IMG/VR virus record: IMGVR_UViG_3300017706_000583
Location: 1 to 20,449 of that record
DNA: 20,449 nucleotides
Direction: 5' to 3' (one strand)
Source of the DNA: a virus
Position numbers and translations under genes: made by a program. The first letter of the stretch is position 1, and each line of letters begins with the position of its first letter. The notes below the pieces were generated by a model that was not told the DNA's origin, did no database searches, and saw nothing but the letters and a program-made list of their open reading frames with translations. Shown in pieces: positions 1-14,843 of this stretch.

Positions 1-2332
1 TTATTTGAGCAGGATCACTTGAGCTTTGAACGTCAAGCACATATGCTGGCGAACACCCAATCCCTAAGTTACCTGATTGGTCAAATGCAGATAGCGCACC
101 TCCAACACTATTTCTCAACTCAAGCAAGTTAGCTGAAGAAAAACTGTTTTCCTGAACTATAAGAGGTATCTTTGTATTTTCGTTACCACTAGAGCCAGCA
201 GGAGTTAAAAGATGCAAACTACCACTAGGCGAACTCGTCCCAATCCCCAAGCTCTCCGCACTCGCATCCCAGAATAACTTTGCGGTGGTGCCTGTGTCCT
301 CATAAAAGCTGATGTCGCCGCCTGAAGAAATGCGCATACGTTCTTTTGCTAGAGTATCAAAACGTAAAATTCCAGTGCTTTCGTTACTTATGGCCATTGA
401 GTCATCAGTCTGGTTATAAGTAATCTGCCCAATCGTTCCTGTGTTAGCTGCATTTTCAATTTTAAATATAACTTGCTCACCAGATACGTTTGGATTTTTA
501 ACAGTCAGCCCATCGCTGGTGATTGTGCCTGTGACGTCAAGCGCACCAACGATATTTGTAGCATCTAGGTTTGTTGTACCGTCTACGTCTATGTCACCAG
601 AGATGTCTAATGAAGCAAAAACAGAAGTGCCTGTTGCTGTAACGGTGCCAGTTACGTTAATACCTGTAGAGGTAGTTTCTAAACGTACATCCGTTCCGCT
701 GTGGAATATTCTTACCGCATGATCGTAGCCACCACCGTCACGCATTTCCATGTATGTGTTAGAAGCAGCATGTTCTCTGAAATAGATATTATCAGAGTTA
801 ATATTAAAGCCACCATTTGCAGTAATGTTTAACGGCTTGTTGTTTGCTGCAATAATGTTTGAGTTATTTAAGTCATGCTCAATTGTAAGATCACCATGAG
901 TTCCAAATCTAGCTTCATTGCCATCGCCAAATAACAAGTTACCAGTCATGCTGTCGCCAGTAACATTAACAAAGCCAGACGCATCTAAAGCCGCAGCTTG
1001 CCAAGCACTATCGTTATAAACCTTTAGAATATTATCAGTTGTATTAAAGTATAAATCACCATTGCCTAATGAATCCCCGTCATTGTCTAATGTAGGATCA
1101 CTAGCTTTAGCGCCAAGATAAGTGTCATCAAAGTTATCAGCAGCCAACTCAGCAGCAGCCTGTGCAGCTTGAGCAGCTACCTTAGCAGCCTCGGCCGCAG
1201 CAGCATTTGCAGCCGCGCCAGAAACAGAGCTAGCAACCCCAGCAACTGTCGTAATGTGTGCGCTAATTGGTGCAAGCGTATTAATGTTGGCTATGTTGTT
1301 AGCTATTGTAGATAAGTATCCAACAGATGGAGCAACAGTATTTACATTAGCAATGTTGTCAGCAACCGTGGTTACTTTAGTTATAACATTAGCGACATCA
1401 TTAACGTCATCTATATTTGTAGCGACTAGATTAATGTTTGTTGCGTTGCTGTTTACTGTAGAAATGGCAGACGTAATTCCAGCAACAGTTGCAACATTGC
1501 CAGAAATACCAGCAACAGTATTAATATTAGAAATGGCACTAGCAACAGTGTTTACATTAGTAATAGCAGCACCAACAACATCTACATTGCTTATAGAACC
1601 ACCAACCAACTCAACTTGGTCAAGGCTGTCAGCCACATCATTAAGATCAGAGATAGAGCCAGCAACACTATTAACATTAGTTATGTTTGTATTGACTGTA
1701 TTTACATTAGATATGCTAGAAGCCACAGAAGTAACTGAGGATATATTAGATCCTACGCTATTGACGTTACTAATCGCACCAGCAACCGTTGTAATGTTAG
1801 CCTTAATGCCATTAAGAGAAGTAATCTCAGATGCAATAGATGCAATGCTTGTTAGCTCATTGCCACTTGGCCCAACTTCTAATGCGCCAGTAGTAGAATT
1901 AAACTGAACGGTCTTTCCTAAGCGACTAGCTTTAGCAGGAAGGTCCAAAGACACACCCACTTCATAATCATTTAAAGATATAGAGCGTGATACTCGGTCA
2001 TCTAAATCAGCAACCTGAGTAACAATACGATCTAGCTGGTCATTTAAGGAAGATGCGCTGTAAGAAGAAGTAAGATCAGTTGTACGCTCAAGCGGCACAT
2101 CCCTAACTATAGCAATCTCTGCGCCAGCAGTTTGACCGCTACTCGTTGTAATAGATCCAGTTGATCCGCTGCCGCCTGTAACCGTGTAAGCAGATGTAGC
2201 CAAGACCGAGCCGCCTACATATACAGTAAGGTCAGTGCTTGCAAAGAATTCAAAAGGAACTGTGAATACAGTTTGCCCTGATGTTGCTGTGTAATTAATA
2301 CGGGGATTGTTGTTTGATACGTTGATTGCCAT
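1..2332 (-). CDS. Tail fibre protein, T7 gp17-type N-terminus (partial, 3' end missing)
   Basis: Host-binding fibre of the short tail. The frame opens at ATG 2332 behind a strong AGGAGAGG and stays open to the left edge, giving at least 777 residues with no stop; the TTA at 1-3 is out of frame. Residues 1 to about 125 match the T7 fibre N-terminal domain that attaches to the tail: a TSGQTVFTVPFEF stretch, an IAIVRDVPLERTTD stretch, then an LNDQLDRI helix. Residues 161-366 are decapeptide repeats (separate entry). Residues about 370-400 are Ala-rich. A beta-rich region follows with GDSMTGNL, a THGDLTIEHD stretch, and two copies of an LGIG(T/C)-SP-LxV motif near residues 693 and 754. In other phages such motifs often precede a self-cleaving chaperone (peptidase S74) domain, which would lie outside this window. 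It is the last gene visible here, downstream of the ejection proteins, with its own 69-nt leader. Confidence 0.9.
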   Translation of the reverse strand, partial: MAINVSNNNPRINYTATSGQTVFTVPFEFFASTDLTVYVGGSVLATSAYTVTGGSGSTGSITTSSGQTAGAEIAIVRDVPLERTTDLTSSYSASSLNDQLDRIVTQVADLDDRVSRSISLNDYEVGVSLDLPAKASRLGKTVQFNSTTGALEVGPSGNELTSIASIASEITSLNGIKANITTVAGAISNVNSVGSNISSVTSVASSISNVNTVNTNITNVNSVAGSISDLNDVADSLDQVELVGGSISNVDVVGAAITNVNTVASAISNINTVAGISGNVATVAGITSAISTVNSNATNINLVATNIDDVNDVANVITKVTTVADNIANVNTVAPSVGYLSTIANNIANINTLAPISAHITTVAGVASSVSGAAANAAAAEAAKVAAQAAQAAAELAADNFDDTYLGAKASDPTLDNDGDSLGNGDLYFNTTDNILKVYNDSAWQAAALDASGFVNVTGDSMTGNLLFGDGNEARFGTHGDLTIEHDLNNSNIIAANNKPLNITANGGFNINSDNIYFREHAASNTYMEMRDGGGYDHAVRIFHSGTDVRLETTSTGINVTGTVTATGTSVFASLDISGDIDVDGTTNLDATNIVGALDVTGTITSDGLTVKNPNVSGEQVIFKIENAANTGTIGQITYNQTDDSMAISNESTGILRFDTLAKERMRISSGGDISFYEDTGTTAKLFWDASAESLGIGTSSPSGSLHLLTPAGSSGNENTKIPLIVQENSFSSANLLELRNSVGGALSAFDQSGNLGIGCSPAYVLDVQSSSDPAQI
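1235..1852 (-). repeat. About 20 degenerate 30-bp (10-residue) repeats in the fibre shaft
   Basis: Residues 161-366 of the fibre read as near-continuous decapeptides with consensus (S/T)NVNxVAxxI, for example SNVNTVNTNI, TNVNSVAGSI, TNVNTVASAI and TNINLVATNI. Most units are exactly 10 residues; a few are 7, 9 or 11. Hydrophobic residues fall at positions 3, 6 and 10 of each unit, and Asn dominates positions 2 and 4. The DNA period of 30 bp preserves frame, which is why the opposite strand also stays open here. This is probably a fibrous, oligomeric shaft between the tail-attachment domain and the distal tip. The structural class cannot be decided from sequence alone. Confidence 0.85.
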
Positions 2333-2401: not shown

Positions 2402-5400
2402 TTACTGCGCCCAAGCTCTGGTAATTTGATTGATGTCATCCTTTAAGAACCAAAGTCGAGCAAACGGAGCATTGCGAGCTATTGTTTTTGCTCCTTCTCC
2501 ATACTCGCCACTAGCAAATTGATACATACCATTTCCAACATCAGCCGCCCAAGATGGGCCAGCACCAGCTAATCCAGTTACAGCATCTAATGCGCTAGGT
2601 TCTTGAGGAAACTTAGCCGCTAATATGCCGCCAGTAATATTAGGGCCACCAAGCGCAAGTGAAGTGTGCATAGCTGTATAAAAAAGATCTGAGTACAAAG
2701 CCATAACTCCACTCATATCAAAGCTTCTAACAAACTTGTCTTGAGCAGACATTTCTTCCCAAACAAAGTCAGGTGTTCTTAAACTTAATGAAAGATAGGC
2801 AAGGCCAAGAGAAGTAGATATGCCAATCATTCTATTCTTAACTTGATTAGTAGCTAATGCTGCAACAGTCTTGTTTAAGTTTGCAAGCGTGTAGCTATAA
2901 AACTGAAATGGCAATCCCATAAGGCCATTTTCAATTCTAGCATAACCACGAATTTTAGAATCTTCCTGCATTCCAAATTTCTTAGCAACACTCATAGGTA
3001 TGTAAGCAACACCATCTGTTATGATTGGTTTGTCAGCTGGAGTTCCTGACATAATTGTATTTAACACACCACTATTAAGGGCGGTTCTGAACTTAGCTAC
3101 AGTTTCCTCAGCATCATCTAGCTCAACCTTGTATCGCTTGTTTGCTTCAAGCTTAATGCCTTCTTCTTTTTGATTGCGAATATAATTATACGCAACTTCA
3201 TCAATTCGCTTCTCGTATTGAGATATTGTTTCCCCAGCTTTTTGAAGGTTTGTTGTGTGATGTAATTCATGCAGCAATATAAATTCATAGTAATCATCTG
3301 CCGAATCTATAAGATCAGCATTTTTAATTAACTGAGTTCTGTGAACGTGTATTTCTTCTGTAATCTTACCTCCTGCTAACAACTCATCTGTGCGCTGAAG
3401 CATTTCATCTTTTTCTCTAGGGCTCGATTTAAATAACTCATAAATTTTTTTTATAGCAACTGAATCAATGTAAATTGTATTTGGCATTCCGTCTTCAAAG
3501 CCAACAGATAAACCTAAAGCCCCTTCAAAACCAGTTCGCTCTGTAACATCTTTAACAATTTTAGAATCAGTAATAATTCTATCTACAAAAAACTCTGGGC
3601 TATATCTAGCTAATAACTCCTCTTCAGTCATGCTAGATACTAGCTTTGGCTTTGGCCTTTTGTAAGTCTTGCGAGTTTCTGCAAGGATCTTATCGTAATC
3701 AATTTTAGTCCATTCATCAGTATTAGCCATATACAAATTGGTATCTGACTTTTGCCAAGGAGCTTTTGCTATTTTAGCTGCATCCTCTGCGCCAATCCCG
3801 TAGCGAGACAACCACGTTAGCTCTTGTGGTGTAAGATCTTTGTATCTGATTGAGTAGTCAATAATAGTATGGGCATCAATAATTCCAGCAAGCTGCTTGG
3901 CTATTGTGGTCATTGGAGCAAGGCCGTTTAGAATGTAAAAAGCATTTCTTGCGCTGCTAAGAAGATCATTAGCATCTACATTGTTAGATAAATCTTCTAC
4001 CATTCTCATGTGCGCAGAGCCACGAAGAATATCTATAGCCTCACCAGCAATCCTAACCTCATCTACAGTCATGCTAACTGTATTTTTATCCATAATTGCT
4101 TGGACGCCTTTAACTACATTGTCTAAGTCATATTCCATAACAATGCGGCCAAAGTCAGGAAGCGCAGCTAAACCAGCAGAGCCCATGTAACTGAATGAAG
4201 CGGCTTCTCTAAGAATAAATGCAGCCCTCTGACTCAAGCTATCTGGATTTCTAATTACTGCACCAGAAACGCGATCATACATATGCATGTAATCTCTACG
4301 CATTTTATTTATATCTTTTGTAGAAAACCCTTTGGCTATCATTTCTGCTTCCATATCAAGCAGAACTCCATCTACATCTTTGCCAAATGCTTTTGCATAT
4401 TCATAGCGTGGCTCAATGCGAGCGGCATATGTCTTCATTACAGCAAGCGGATCAGTAACAATAAATTTAGTAACAAGTTTGTTAGGTATGTCTATTTGAC
4501 GATGGCGAAAGTGCTTAGAGCGACCATAACCAAATCCAATGCTATCAACATTGGTAGGATCTTTTTCATTTAAAATCCTAGCTATTGTAGTCTCAACGCG
4601 CTCTTGAATAGCTTCTACACTTGTTGCTAAATGCACTCGCTCAAACATAGCAGTCTGAGCATTCTTTTCATAAATGTATGGATTGCTTTGATACCAGTTA
4701 AACAAAACTTCAGAAAACTCTTTGCGATTGTTCTTAATTGCAGTCGCATCCCAGAACCTAGGAAAGAATATATCTTCACTCTCAGGAGTAACCTTAACTT
4801 CTTCTAAGGCAAGTTTAGTTGTTCTTTCATCTGCAAGTCTTTCACCGAGCAAAGCAAGACGATTATCTAACATCTGAACTTCAAGCTTGCCGCGTTTAGT
4901 TCCTTTTAGCTTAGCAGATGCTAGCCTTGTATTTAGTGATGCTATCTCTGCTTCGAGTTGCTCAATCTTAACGGCAACTCCTTTGTTGGTTCCAATTAAA
5001 CCAACGCTCTCTAATTGCTTTTCTGCTTTGGCAAAGTAATCATTAATAACCCCAATAGCCTTAGCCTCATTTTCAGTAAGGTCAGCAGAGTTCTTAATTC
5101 TTTTTTCGCTAACTCTTGTTAGCCAACTTCTATAGGTATCTTCACTACGAGAGGCGCGGCGAGCAAGATCAGACACGTTAATGTCTAATGGTGTTATCTC
5201 AGCAGCGCTTGTATCAGACGCCCACAACTTAATAAGTTTATCATGCGAAGCTACCCACTTACCATTGCTTACCGCCGCTCTCTGAGCAACTGACTGAGGT
5301 GTAGGAAGCCCTATAGAATTAAGAGCAAGGGCTACACCACTGTCACTAAATGACCGAACAAAGTTTTCTTTTATAGCAGACGGATACTTTGATTGCAGCG

Positions 5401-6376
5401 CTCGCTTCATTGGTGTTGACACTGCTTTGTACAAAATACTGTCAGTAAAAAATGAAGGCATGATTTTGAAGGGATCTTTTAAATCTATTTCTAAAGATTC
5501 TAATTCCCTAAATGCTTTTTCATTTCTGTAAGCTTGCGCTGTTCCTCTAAGCACTTCAGCTCTTTCTTGAAAGTCTTGAACAGTTTCAGCGTAACCTTCA
5601 TATGAATTAGATTCTTTTTCTGTAGCAGCAGCAGATTCTTCAAAAGTTTGAATAGTAGCGTTTAAATCATCATCGCTAAGATTTCCATACGGCCTTTCTT
5701 CCCTAGGAGGCGCAGATGCAATATCTTCTCGACTAAGCCCTTCAAGATTATCTATGCGACGAAGCATATCCATTTCTTCTTGAATAGCTTTTTGCGTGTT
5801 TGCATGAGCGCGAGCTTTAGCTGTTATTGGAGCGCCAAATGTCCCACCTATACCAGCCCCAAATATAGCTGTTGTTGCAATATTTACTGCACTTTCTTGA
5901 GCAGTTTGCAACGGATCAAACGGTTGAATAACTGCACCTTCTAATCCTGCTTGAATAGCAGCAGTACCAGCGCCCACACGCAAAGCTGACTTCCCAATGC
6001 CAACAGCAGGGCCACCAAACGGAAGCGCTATAAGATTAATAGGATCAATAATACCCGCTACTAACTGAGCGCCTATTGTTGACTCAGAAAGAACTTGTCT
6101 ACGTGTTGCGCTTTCATCAATAACTCTTTTCATGTCAGCCATATGCTGCTGACTTGTAGCTCTGGCTAATGTTTCTGCATAAACTCCGTAGCTGCCCAAG
6201 TCTTTCATTGGATTGTATCCAGATTCTTTTTGAATCCCGTATCTAGCTGTTTGACCTATAGTTTCAAACAAGGGATCAAGAGTATAACCTACAGAAGCTG
6301 ACAGAGTTTCTCCAAAAGTAGGTCTGCCGCTAACTATATCTCTTTGGAAATATACTGGAGAATATTCATTAGCCAT
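2402..6376 (-). CDS. Internal virion / DNA-ejection protein (T7 gp16-like) with embedded HELHH zincin-like domain
   Basis: A 1324-residue protein, close to the 1318 of T7 gp16, last of three ejection proteins. Such proteins are packed in the capsid core and extruded to form a channel across the host envelope. The N-terminal 190 residues include Gly/Ala-rich hydrophobic stretches (about 103-150 and 165-182), and a coiled coil spans about 465-515. I see no lytic transglycosylase motif such as T7 gp16 has. Residues 1036-1040 read HELHH, preceded by hydrophobic FILL, and E1060 in a DEVAYNY context is a plausible third metal ligand, giving HExxH-x19-E as in gluzincins. The C-terminal part (about 1100-1324) looks like other podoviral ejection proteins, with a hydrophobic segment near 1180-1195. 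Its ATG overlaps the previous stop as TAATG. The ejection role is well supported by order and size; peptidase activity is inferred from the motif. Confidence 0.85.
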   Translation of the reverse strand: MANEYSPVYFQRDIVSGRPTFGETLSASVGYTLDPLFETIGQTARYGIQKESGYNPMKDLGSYGVYAETLARATSQQHMADMKRVIDESATRRQVLSESTIGAQLVAGIIDPINLIALPFGGPAVGIGKSALRVGAGTAAIQAGLEGAVIQPFDPLQTAQESAVNIATTAIFGAGIGGTFGAPITAKARAHANTQKAIQEEMDMLRRIDNLEGLSREDIASAPPREERPYGNLSDDDLNATIQTFEESAAATEKESNSYEGYAETVQDFQERAEVLRGTAQAYRNEKAFRELESLEIDLKDPFKIMPSFFTDSILYKAVSTPMKRALQSKYPSAIKENFVRSFSDSGVALALNSIGLPTPQSVAQRAAVSNGKWVASHDKLIKLWASDTSAAEITPLDINVSDLARRASRSEDTYRSWLTRVSEKRIKNSADLTENEAKAIGVINDYFAKAEKQLESVGLIGTNKGVAVKIEQLEAEIASLNTRLASAKLKGTKRGKLEVQMLDNRLALLGERLADERTTKLALEEVKVTPESEDIFFPRFWDATAIKNNRKEFSEVLFNWYQSNPYIYEKNAQTAMFERVHLATSVEAIQERVETTIARILNEKDPTNVDSIGFGYGRSKHFRHRQIDIPNKLVTKFIVTDPLAVMKTYAARIEPRYEYAKAFGKDVDGVLLDMEAEMIAKGFSTKDINKMRRDYMHMYDRVSGAVIRNPDSLSQRAAFILREAASFSYMGSAGLAALPDFGRIVMEYDLDNVVKGVQAIMDKNTVSMTVDEVRIAGEAIDILRGSAHMRMVEDLSNNVDANDLLSSARNAFYILNGLAPMTTIAKQLAGIIDAHTIIDYSIRYKDLTPQELTWLSRYGIGAEDAAKIAKAPWQKSDTNLYMANTDEWTKIDYDKILAETRKTYKRPKPKLVSSMTEEELLARYSPEFFVDRIITDSKIVKDVTERTGFEGALGLSVGFEDGMPNTIYIDSVAIKKIYELFKSSPREKDEMLQRTDELLAGGKITEEIHVHRTQLIKNADLIDSADDYYEFILLHELHHTTNLQKAGETISQYEKRIDEVAYNYIRNQKEEGIKLEANKRYKVELDDAEETVAKFRTALNSGVLNTIMSGTPADKPIITDGVAYIPMSVAKKFGMQEDSKIRGYARIENGLMGLPFQFYSYTLANLNKTVAALATNQVKNRMIGISTSLGLAYLSLSLRTPDFVWEEMSAQDKFVRSFDMSGVMALYSDLFYTAMHTSLALGGPNITGGILAAKFPQEPSALDAVTGLAGAGPSWAADVGNGMYQFASGEYGEGAKTIARNAPFARLWFLKDDINQITRAWAQ

Positions 6377-9300
6377 TAATTAAGCTCCATCATCGGGCCT
6401 TGCAGTCCAGCAGTAGGATCAACGTTAAACATTGTACCGCCACCAGTAATAACAGCACCTCCAAGAGCATCTGTTGGAATGCCACGAGGAACAGCATGCT
6501 TAGTTGTTCCAGAGGCAACTGCGTCTTTGCCTTCTCTATTAGTTCTTTTAGACACCATATCTAAAAATATTCTATCTTTATTGCTTAAAATAAGCGGCGC
6601 TCTAATGGGTAAATCCTGCGGACCAGTTTCTGTTACTTCAGTATATACTTGCTCATAACCCCCAGCTTCTGGTGTAGTAATCCTAAATACTGCGTACTGA
6701 ACTTGCCCTCTAGTTGGCACACCTATTGGCTTTAAGAAAATATTTCCTTTTGGAGCGCTCCACGTTGCTATTACTTGAGCAGTATATGCAACCGCGCCCA
6801 CATCTTTCATAAGACCAAGCTCGGGAGGCTGTGCATTTGGCTGTGCTTTTGTCACTTGATTAACAATGTAATCTTTAAACAGGTCTTCATTTTTAGGAGC
6901 AGCATATGAAATTGGTGCAGCAGTTCTTGCCGAACCATTAGGGCCAAGAACAATACCCTCTCCACTTGGATATGATGCATTAAGCTGACGTTCTAATCTT
7001 TTTTTAAGCTCTGCAGCCCCAAGGCCACCAGCTAAAGATATGCCCATTAAATCTAATGTAGCAGCTTTCATTCCATTATATGCAGAAAGAGGCGCATCTT
7101 GAATGCCACTAAGCTGAGAAACATAATCATCTAAATTAGTGCCAAGGAAAGTTTCTACATTTTCTTTGTATCTTGGGTTTCTTTCTAGCTCAGACTTAGC
7201 AGCAAATGCCCTAGATAAAAACTCAGGATCAGAACCAATAAGTCTAGAAGCATCTGCTAAATAATCTAATACAGAAACCTGACTTTCATCTAAGCCCTGC
7301 ATCATAGGAGATCTCATAGTTGTCCCCATGTATTCATACTCTCTGTAACTTGTATATTGAGAGAGTAAAGCTACTGGACTTCCTCCTAAAAAGTTTCCAC
7401 TAGCAAATGAAGAAAGAGATTCCTGCAAGGAGTAAGGCATAGTATTTAAGCCAGCAATAGCATTTAATAAAACTTGACCACGCTCTGTTTGCTGTGCTTC
7501 AGCATTTGACCAAAATGTAGATAACGGTTCCCCTTGCAAAACATCAGAAAAGTTTTTTGTAAGAAAGTCATCAACAAACTTTTGATCAGTTATACTTTTT
7601 GGATCAAGTTGCCTTTGCCTAAGCCTCTGTTCATTTTCATAATATTTTCTGTCTTTTTTAGCTTGTTCAATTCTGCTAGAGTTTATACTTGCGCCACGAT
7701 TAAAATGCTCTCTAACTGTACTTTCAGTCTTAGATGTTTTTGCATAGCTAGAAGCTTGGCTTAATAATTCTAAATGCCTAGAGTTTAAATTATCTGTTGG
7801 AGCAGAGCCATCTAAATAAGCCTTTGCATCTATAGCAGTTTCTTTAGAAGGATTAGTTTCAAAAAACTCATTAATGCTAGCTTCAGCACCACGGCGCTGT
7901 ATTTCTTTTAAATATTCCTGCCTTAGAGTTTCATCTAAGTCATCCATTAACGAAAATGTATCTATTAAACTTTGAACCCCAGACGAAATATTTGTGCCTC
8001 TAAGTTTATCAAGGCTGTCAATCGACTCATCAAAAGTAGAGGCGCTTAAAGCAGCATTTGCTTTTTTCTCAGCCTCAACATACTTACCAGCCGCATCTCT
8101 ATACGAACCAATAAAGGGCAAAAACTCATCAAGAATTTTTGGATTAACTTCATTATTAATCTTAATCAAAGCTTCTAATGCTGGCTTTGATGTATCTGGC
8201 GCACCAAGAGAAGTTCTAGAAAAAATAGCTTTTTCAAGTTGCTCTGTTTGTTTCTTGGTTAAGCCCTTAACAGCCCTAAGCATTAAACCCTCAACATGAG
8301 CGCTAAGTAAGTCATCACGATTTTTAATTAACTGCTCTGAGAGTGTTTTATTACCAGATGCTAAAGCATTTCTAGATTCGCTTGTTAGTCTTGCGTAATT
8401 TGAAATTGCTTGCACTGCCACAGTATTAGTAGGTACAAAACTATTTCTTCCTTGATTGGTAGCTTTCGACAATGCTGCTGGCATACTTTGTTGCATGTCA
8501 AAGATGCTCATAGCATTCTCTGCTTCTAAAGATCTTAACTCTTGGTCTTGAACTACTTGAGCCGCTTGGATTGCATCAGACAATAAGCCATCAGAAAACT
8601 GTTCTAGTTGAGATAAGGCGCTGTAGTTAGATCCAATACCCTTCATTGCATCTGCTATGTAAGAAAACTCTTGAGGAACTGCGCCAGCATTCTGAGTGCC
8701 TACAGCATGTTGCAATAGTTTTAGTTTATCTGGGTTGGTAGTTTGAGTAATAGCATATCTTAGTAAGCCTCTAGCTTGAGCCAGTTGACCAGCTTCACCC
8801 ATATTTAAAGACGCTTGAGAATCAAACAATCCAGAATCCACACCATCATTTATAGTGTTTTGAACCTGAGCAATTACTGCATTTGTTTGAGTCGGGCCTT
8901 GAAGTACGCTTGGCCCACCTTGGGCAACCATTGATTCAAAAGCCTCATATCCATTTTCAACGGCTTGCGCTTGAGCCTTGGCTGCTGCCGTTCTTTCCCT
9001 TTGTATTTGAGCTATAGATAGACTTGTTTTAGTAGCATTAAGATAAGTTGTGCCTACATCTTGTATGTAAGTTTTGAACTGACCTTCTGCCTCATTAGAC
9101 ATTGCTGCCATGTAATCAGACATTGCTGACTCATATAAAGCAACACCATTAGGATTTCCCTCATACTTTGCTGCTAACTCTCTAGCTTTATTCTGCATTT
9201 CATCGTCATAAGACTGCTGAAACCTACGCATAATAACGCGCTGATATGCTTCTGTAGCTATTTGACCAAAACCTTGAGGTGGAGCAAATGCTTGAGGCTT

Positions 9301-14321: not shown

Positions 14322-14843
14322 TCAGTGCGTTATGGGCCGTAATCCCCCATCGTAAACACTTTTTTGATTTAGATTGCAACGCACAAAATCAACGTACTTA
14401 TGAGGAGGTGATATACTTACACCTACTGGCTCAAAGCCAAGCCACACCGCCCAGTCTATCATAATCTCATAATCAGCAAGTATGGTCATAGTCATCTGAG
14501 GCTGTGTTTGCTCTAAATAGTTAAGCAACATCTTCGACCCGCGAGCCATAGATGTGAAGTTTTCTTTAATTTTATGGGAAAACATAAAGAACATCTGCGG
14601 ATAATCTTGGTCTTCGTTGTACCAAAGACCGCCAACCGCAGTAAATACTTCGCCTTCTTTGCGAACTAAATAGCATTCAGAGCATTCATACATTTCTGTA
14701 ATGGCTTGCTTAATATCCAAGTGTCCAAGGATTTTAAGCTCTCTTATATTCTCATGACTTAGATTGGCAGCAACTTCATCAATGTGATCAAGAGTAAAAG
14801 GGGTTAAGTAAAACTTACCCCTCTTGAGAATCTTAACCTCCAT
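14322..14843 (-). CDS. T7 gp13-like protein with GNAT-type fold (DUF2833-like)
   Basis: A 173-residue protein resembling T7 gp13, a protein needed for virion morphogenesis whose family has an acetyltransferase (GNAT)-like fold. Matching pattern: an early basic strand and a D-AANLSHENIREL helix (about 20-37), a Y-VRKEGEVFTAVGGLW strand pair (59-74), a FMFS strand, a helix with MARGSKMLLNYLEQ (99-112), and near the C-terminus IDWAVWLGFEPVG (129-141), the typical closing element. The pyrophosphate-binding loop is degenerate (ARGSK instead of R/Q-xxGxG/A), so catalysis is uncertain. Its ATG lies inside the scaffold gene (11-nt overlap). T7 has gene 13 after the tail tube genes; here it sits between scaffold and capsid. 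Confidence 0.7.
   Translation of the reverse strand: MEVKILKRGKFYLTPFTLDHIDEVAANLSHENIRELKILGHLDIKQAITEMYECSECYLVRKEGEVFTAVGGLWYNEDQDYPQMFFMFSHKIKENFTSMARGSKMLLNYLEQTQPQMTMTILADYEIMIDWAVWLGFEPVGVSISPPHKYVDFVRCNLNQKSVYDGGLRPITH

Follow-up and report, generated by a model that had tools for sequence, protein, structure and literature searches.

A recurrent zincin-like domain inserted in the T7-gp16-type ejection protein of an environmental phage

Phage ejection proteins of the gp16 type are packaged in the virion and then ejected. In T7 gp16, residues 1–156 form a transglycosylase and residues 157–228 an extended "molecular tape," and the C-terminal portion, gp16-C, is assigned to the cytoplasm (PMC8954989). 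The N-terminal transglycosylase of gp16-like proteins has been described as phage-specific (PMC8954989), so an enzyme at the N terminus is no requirement for membership in this group. In 2017, Iyer et al. proposed zincin domains for proteins that phages deliver, with the N4 virion RNA polymerase (vRNAP) and P1 DdrB as examples (PMC5512222). The zincins of polyvalent proteins feature a three-stranded sheet, an HExxH helix, and then a Glu helix, with variable inserts between the helices (PMC5512222), and in the short-tailed phage N4, the vRNAP, a giant packaged and ejected protein, contains an HExxH zincin-like domain (PMC12633501, PMC5512222). In the open literature that we surveyed, such domains are reported for N4 vRNAP and the polyvalent proteins (PMC12633501, PMC5512222), and we came across none in a T7-gp16-type ejection protein.

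We analyzed a 20,449-nucleotide stretch of viral DNA (IMG/VR record IMGVR_UViG_3300017706_000583; hereafter, the window) that encodes a gp16-like protein with a zincin-like domain in its C-terminal part (Table 1). The 1324-residue protein matches the profile phrog_342, annotated as "internal virion protein with endolysin domain," over its central body (residues 18–872, E 2e-34), and the match fades at ≈872–898, just before the inserted segment. Because the match starts only at profile position 222, the N-terminal enzyme part is missing; no Pfam match to an N-terminal lytic transglycosylase of the T7 type was found in the protein. The gene thus shares with T7 gp16 and other gp16-like ejection proteins the phrog_342 backbone and an ordinary podovirus gene order in its surroundings, but its product differs from T7 gp16 in having no N-terminal transglycosylase and an extra C-terminal zincin cassette. 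Judging from family and gene order, the protein is probably packaged in the head and ejected. For the product of the upstream gene, neither Pfam nor PHROG gave a match above cut-off. Elsewhere in the window, a 173-residue protein encoded between the capsid and scaffold genes (14322–14843, minus strand) has a match to phrog_308 ("internal virion protein") at E 1.4e-11 and a weak one to DUF7222, and a tail-fibre-like protein (2–2332, minus strand) contains many INNVNTVAxxISNV-type repeats in its first half.

Table 1. Features of the gp16-like gene and its neighbor, with positions in the window.
Feature	Position	Strand	Basis
gp16-like ejection (internal virion) protein, 1324 aa	2402..6376	-	phrog_342 match and full-length relatives
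Inserted zincin-like domain, residues 890–1095 (type A)	3092..3709	-	empty sites, and a different insert on 97% identical flanks (L085/L090)
NTDEW, residues 885–889, N-side anchor of the cassette	3710..3724	-	N885 and W889 invariant in alignments A1 and A8
FRTALNSGVL, residues 1096–1105, C-side anchor of the cassette	3062..3091	-	F1096 invariant in alignments A1 and A8
Well-modelled core, residues 918–1075	3152..3625	-	AlphaFold2 pLDDT 92.2, pTM 0.86
D971, invariant Asp ending a β strand	3464..3466	-	invariant in 24 aligned domains
HELHH, residues 1036–1040: two predicted zinc ligands and general base E1037	3257..3271	-	no variation at H1036, E1037, or H1040 across the 24 domains aligned
E1055-K-R-I-D1059, ExxxD/N helix with E1055 as predicted third zinc ligand	3200..3214	-	invariance in 24 domains
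E1060, third ligand proposed earlier, not conserved	3197..3199	-	residue counts at this position
Probable gp15-like internal virion protein, upstream gene, 1048 aa	6376..9522	-	assigned by position and gene order

A sequence-only reading of the window had proposed that residues 890–1095 form a metallopeptidase-like domain, with HExxH and a glutamate, inserted into a gp16-like ejection protein between two neighboring pieces of ordinary sequence, and that the segment might be missing from some homologues. The phrog_342 match, the spacing in relatives, and the conservation of the motif all support this picture. NTDEW and F1096 are separated by 206 residues in the window, compared with 6–7 residues between the equivalent positions in L010 (=L106), 7–8 in L142 and L147, and about 10–14 in two distant relatives, pelagiphage Hodr and Vibrio phage 22O28-1. 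These empty sites confirm that residues 890–1095 are a real insertion, with the proposed boundaries right to within a few residues. To gather relatives from viral contigs without favoring carriers of the insert, we used patterns that lie outside it (TPADKPI and ALGGPNI) in the main scan. Clustering the best 80 of 377 relatives at 95% identity gave 58 groups, of which 54 have HExxH and a downstream E-x-x-[IM]-[ND] helix, three have an empty site, and one is degenerate. With all loci taken together, 67 of 71 non-redundant clusters contain an intact zincin, three have empty sites, and one is degenerate, a frequency restricted to sequences close to the window and based on classes assigned by pattern matching. 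Two scans with narrow patterns returned no loci beyond those already known.

HELHH is the sole HExxH string in the 1324-residue protein, and 0.013 occurrences would be expected by chance from shuffling this protein; together with its presence at the same position in 67 of 71 relatives, this indicates that the motif is not a chance occurrence. Since the four exceptions are the empty and degenerate sites, HExxH is conserved where the segment is present, as had been anticipated. Besides D971, H1036, E1037, H1040, and E1055 (Table 1), F1032, Y1054, and A1062 are invariant in the 24 aligned domains. Across 51 domains, the median pairwise identity is 28% (minimum 14%), and little is conserved beyond HExxH, the Glu helix, F1032, D971, and A1062. 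In gluzincins, HExxH is accompanied by a Glu in the following helix with Asp or Asn four residues on ("ExxxD/N"). E1055 fits such a helix, being present in all 67 intact copies, each with D/N four residues downstream. The earlier choice of third ligand was E1060, in a helix, DEVAYNY, that begins at D1059; conservation excludes it, given that the position is Asp, Gln, Arg, Asn, or Lys in most relatives (D27 Q12 E10 R8 N5 K4 G1 across the 67 intact copies). The spacing between H1036 and the Glu, 19 residues in the window, reaches 265 in relatives with both ends intact, as a result of further segments inserted in the loop between the HExxH and Glu helices. One subgroup of type A inserts (L114, L115, L117–L121, L123, L125, L133, and L144) displays a second HExxH-like string, HEYVH, 73–86 residues before a conserved HEMFH, which is probably a chance or local feature.

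With 24 sequences, AlphaFold2 produced a confident, compact model of residues 918–1075 (Table 1); for residues 880–1109 with 12 sequences, the pLDDT was 79.8. The model begins with a strand (933–935), a helix (938–947), and two further strands (955–958 and 967–970), followed by three helices (972–983, 989–1001, and 1007–1018), the HExxH helix (1026–1039), and the Glu helix (1051–1072), the last two being consecutive and well modelled. A Foldseek search of the PDB with two models retrieved no solved zincin and no match at E ≤ 0.001, and the best match to a metal-enzyme fold was a weak one to YbeY (TMt 0.43, E 2.4). Among viral structures, the top matches, A0A6J5N5Q0 (1325 aa, E 2e-3) and A0A516LUJ6 (1270 aa, prob 1.00), are sized like gp16-like proteins and are probably members of the same family as the window protein, so they do not provide independent support.

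The inserted domain matched no family above threshold in Pfam, PHROG, or NCBIfam. Kinship to ImmA-type proteins, suggested in the sequence-only reading, finds no sequence support, as PF06114 was absent at E ≤ 1 from the Pfam results. In arrangement, the domain as modelled resembles MPTase-PolyVal (PF18818; ArdC, TraC1, and P1 DdrB), with which it shares the HExxH helix, a second helix with a glutamate ligand, a small preceding β sheet, variable inserts between the two helices, and residence inside large proteins that enter the host. The window domain differs in its carrier, a T7-gp16-type ejection protein, in its fixed site, and in having no Pfam match. Comparison with eight ArdC/TraC relatives by hhalign gave probabilities of 20–28% (P about 1e-3; 0.5% for a reversed control), too weak, with PF18818 unmatched in the window record, for the domain to be filed as MPTase-PolyVal. 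The C1 domain of N4 vRNAP, from the schitoviruses, is also an HExxH zincin-like domain in a giant ejected protein, but its carrier is different, and its HExxH follows a strand, DDKTIYLV, with few residues between. Gluzincins, including the thermolysin-like ExxxD and mini-gluzincins, have in common with the domain an HExxH followed by a helix with Glu and D/N four residues on, and neither a sequence nor a Foldseek match to them was found. We detected no recognizable intact copy in a cultured-phage collection and no cellular homologue in a single scan across genomes of bacteria and archaea.

The inserts occur as two types, type A (≈180–210 residues; the window, L002, L003, and others) and type B (≈130–140 residues), which are homologous (hhalign 97.4%). 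Comparison of closely related backbones reveals a sharp change at the insert: type A L085 (=L003, a single metagenomic contig) and type B L092 are 96% and 97% identical in the flanks and 35% in the insert; L085 and L090, 97% and 97% in the flanks and 33% in the insert; and L112 (type A) and L116 (type B), 96% and 97% in the flanks and 33% in the insert. The converse is seen for the window and L085, which are 85% identical in the insert and only 65% and 74% in the flanks. At the DNA level, identity between L003 and L006 falls at the NTDEW codons and recovers at EETVLKF, just before F1096. The type B partner of L085 was found in four metagenomes (L006–L009), and the L085 insert is identical to no other that we found, making a simple assembly chimera unlikely. 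On a backbone tree built without the insert by a quick method (59 rows, leaving out 12 clusters not divisible by the anchor rule), the domain-type labels require at least 11 changes. The domain behaves as a cassette, exchanged or lost as a unit.

Domains are also nested within one another. In L013, the loop of a type B zincin accommodates an intact type A zincin; the surrounding type B copy has KEILR at HExxH and DYVLNK where its sister L134 has YENKIN, so that all its ligands are lost. Further segments of up to about 245 residues sit between the HExxH and Glu helices in L028/L055, L064/L152, L065/L066, L067/L107, and L027/L068, leaving both ends intact. Those of L028 and L064 had no Pfam or PHROG match, and a likeness to ADP-ribosyltransferases, noticed by eye, was set aside on this ground. 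Decay is seen as well. RAAEE replaces HExxH in L139, and in the nearest cultured relative, Pelagibacter phage EXVC031P Hodr (portal 63% identical), gene 057 contains one copy (residues 267–372, E 1.1e-9) with KEVYR in place of HExxH. Compared with the window, this Hodr copy is degenerate and lies at a different site, the window's insertion site being empty in Hodr. The degenerate copies in Hodr and L139 imply that the activity, and the empty-site relatives that the domain itself, is dispensable in some phages.

Taking these observations together, we lean toward a reading in which residues 890–1095 are an unnamed, gluzincin-like peptidase cassette, representing a new zincin family, that is ejected before the DNA and cuts a host or other incoming protein. 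H1036, H1040, and E1055 would hold a zinc ion, as family knowledge leads us to expect, and E1037 would activate water. Packed in the virion, the gp16-like protein would leave ahead of the DNA, and its C-terminal part, by analogy with T7 gp16, may reach the cytoplasm or the inner membrane of the host, and there the zincin domain would cut its substrate in the first minutes of infection; proteolysis and a host target are the most conjectural of these steps. Cleavage of the backbone itself is made less likely by the very different peptidases that sit on nearly identical backbones, and exchange with the active site retained may suit an effector in an arms race better than a structural component. 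The pattern of exchange, loss, and dispensability fits an effector under changing selection.

The zincin could instead be a self-processing protease that, at assembly or entry, cleaves the protein carrying it or further internal virion proteins in preparation for their release, as has been proposed for polyvalent-protein zincins, with P1 DdrB being processed before packaging (PMC5512222). We regard this as rather unlikely, since a cut site in the shared backbone would have to suit peptidases only 33–35% alike and relatives with empty sites keep the same backbone without a zincin, although cuts within the cassette or in other proteins remain compatible with the data.

It is quite improbable that the peptidase acts on the wall or envelope, cleaving peptidoglycan peptides or proteins of the envelope during entry. 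The idea that a zincin stands in for the transglycosylase, as had been put forward for the window, holds insofar as the N-terminal part is missing from the window protein. It is weakened by L126, in which an intact zincin accompanies what is probably a phage lysozyme at the N terminus (endolysin PHROGs; PF00959 at E 3.6e-4, narrowly short of the cut-off); the zincin is therefore no simple substitute, and its location in the C-terminal part makes wall enzyme and zincin separate modules. HExxH zincins are, to our knowledge, not usual wall enzymes, and in T7 the C-terminal part ends in the cytoplasm (PMC8954989). The L126 protein (3367–8355) continues from the probable lysozyme through PPPRPxTVEA repeats to the ejection-protein body. 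The gp16-like proteins of L112 (3517–8490) and L111 (540–5216) have about 250–300 extra N-terminal residues beginning NAGNIRAGQGYAGET, an extension without a Pfam match that resembles a module in place of the T7 transglycosylase.

About as improbable is a non-peptidase domain that binds metal through HExxH, such as a YbeY-like RNase or a hydroxylase of the αKG-HExxH kind. YbeY uses three His, unlike the inserted domain, which has no third conserved His, and the conserved Glu in ExxxD/N fits gluzincins. In favor of such an enzyme are the lack of any matched peptidase family, the weak YbeY match being the best to a metal-enzyme fold, and the occurrence of HExxH in αKG-HExxH hydroxylases as well (PMC12633501). 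The least probable alternative is an inactive structural spacer descended from a zincin, for despite the loss of HExxH in Hodr, L139, and the outer copy of L013, HExxH and Glu are kept in 67 of 68 filled sites at low overall identity and motif-bearing types have been exchanged repeatedly.

Returning to the ejected peptidase cassette, we tentatively suggest a broader possibility, in which the ejection proteins of marine short-tailed phages would contain a fixed "effector slot" holding a pre-DNA peptidase, exchanged by recombination and sometimes with nested domains, that disarms host defences or other host proteins before phage expression. In the case described here, a zincin-like domain occupies one fixed position in almost every close relative sampled of a T7-gp16-type ejection protein, exchange boundaries are clean, and both empty sites and inactive copies occur among relatives. 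The domain is nameless in the three family databases searched, and the nearest cultured phage infects Pelagibacter. Since different types occupy backbones that are almost alike, and relatives provide versions that are empty or inactive, the role of an ejected peptidase becomes directly testable.
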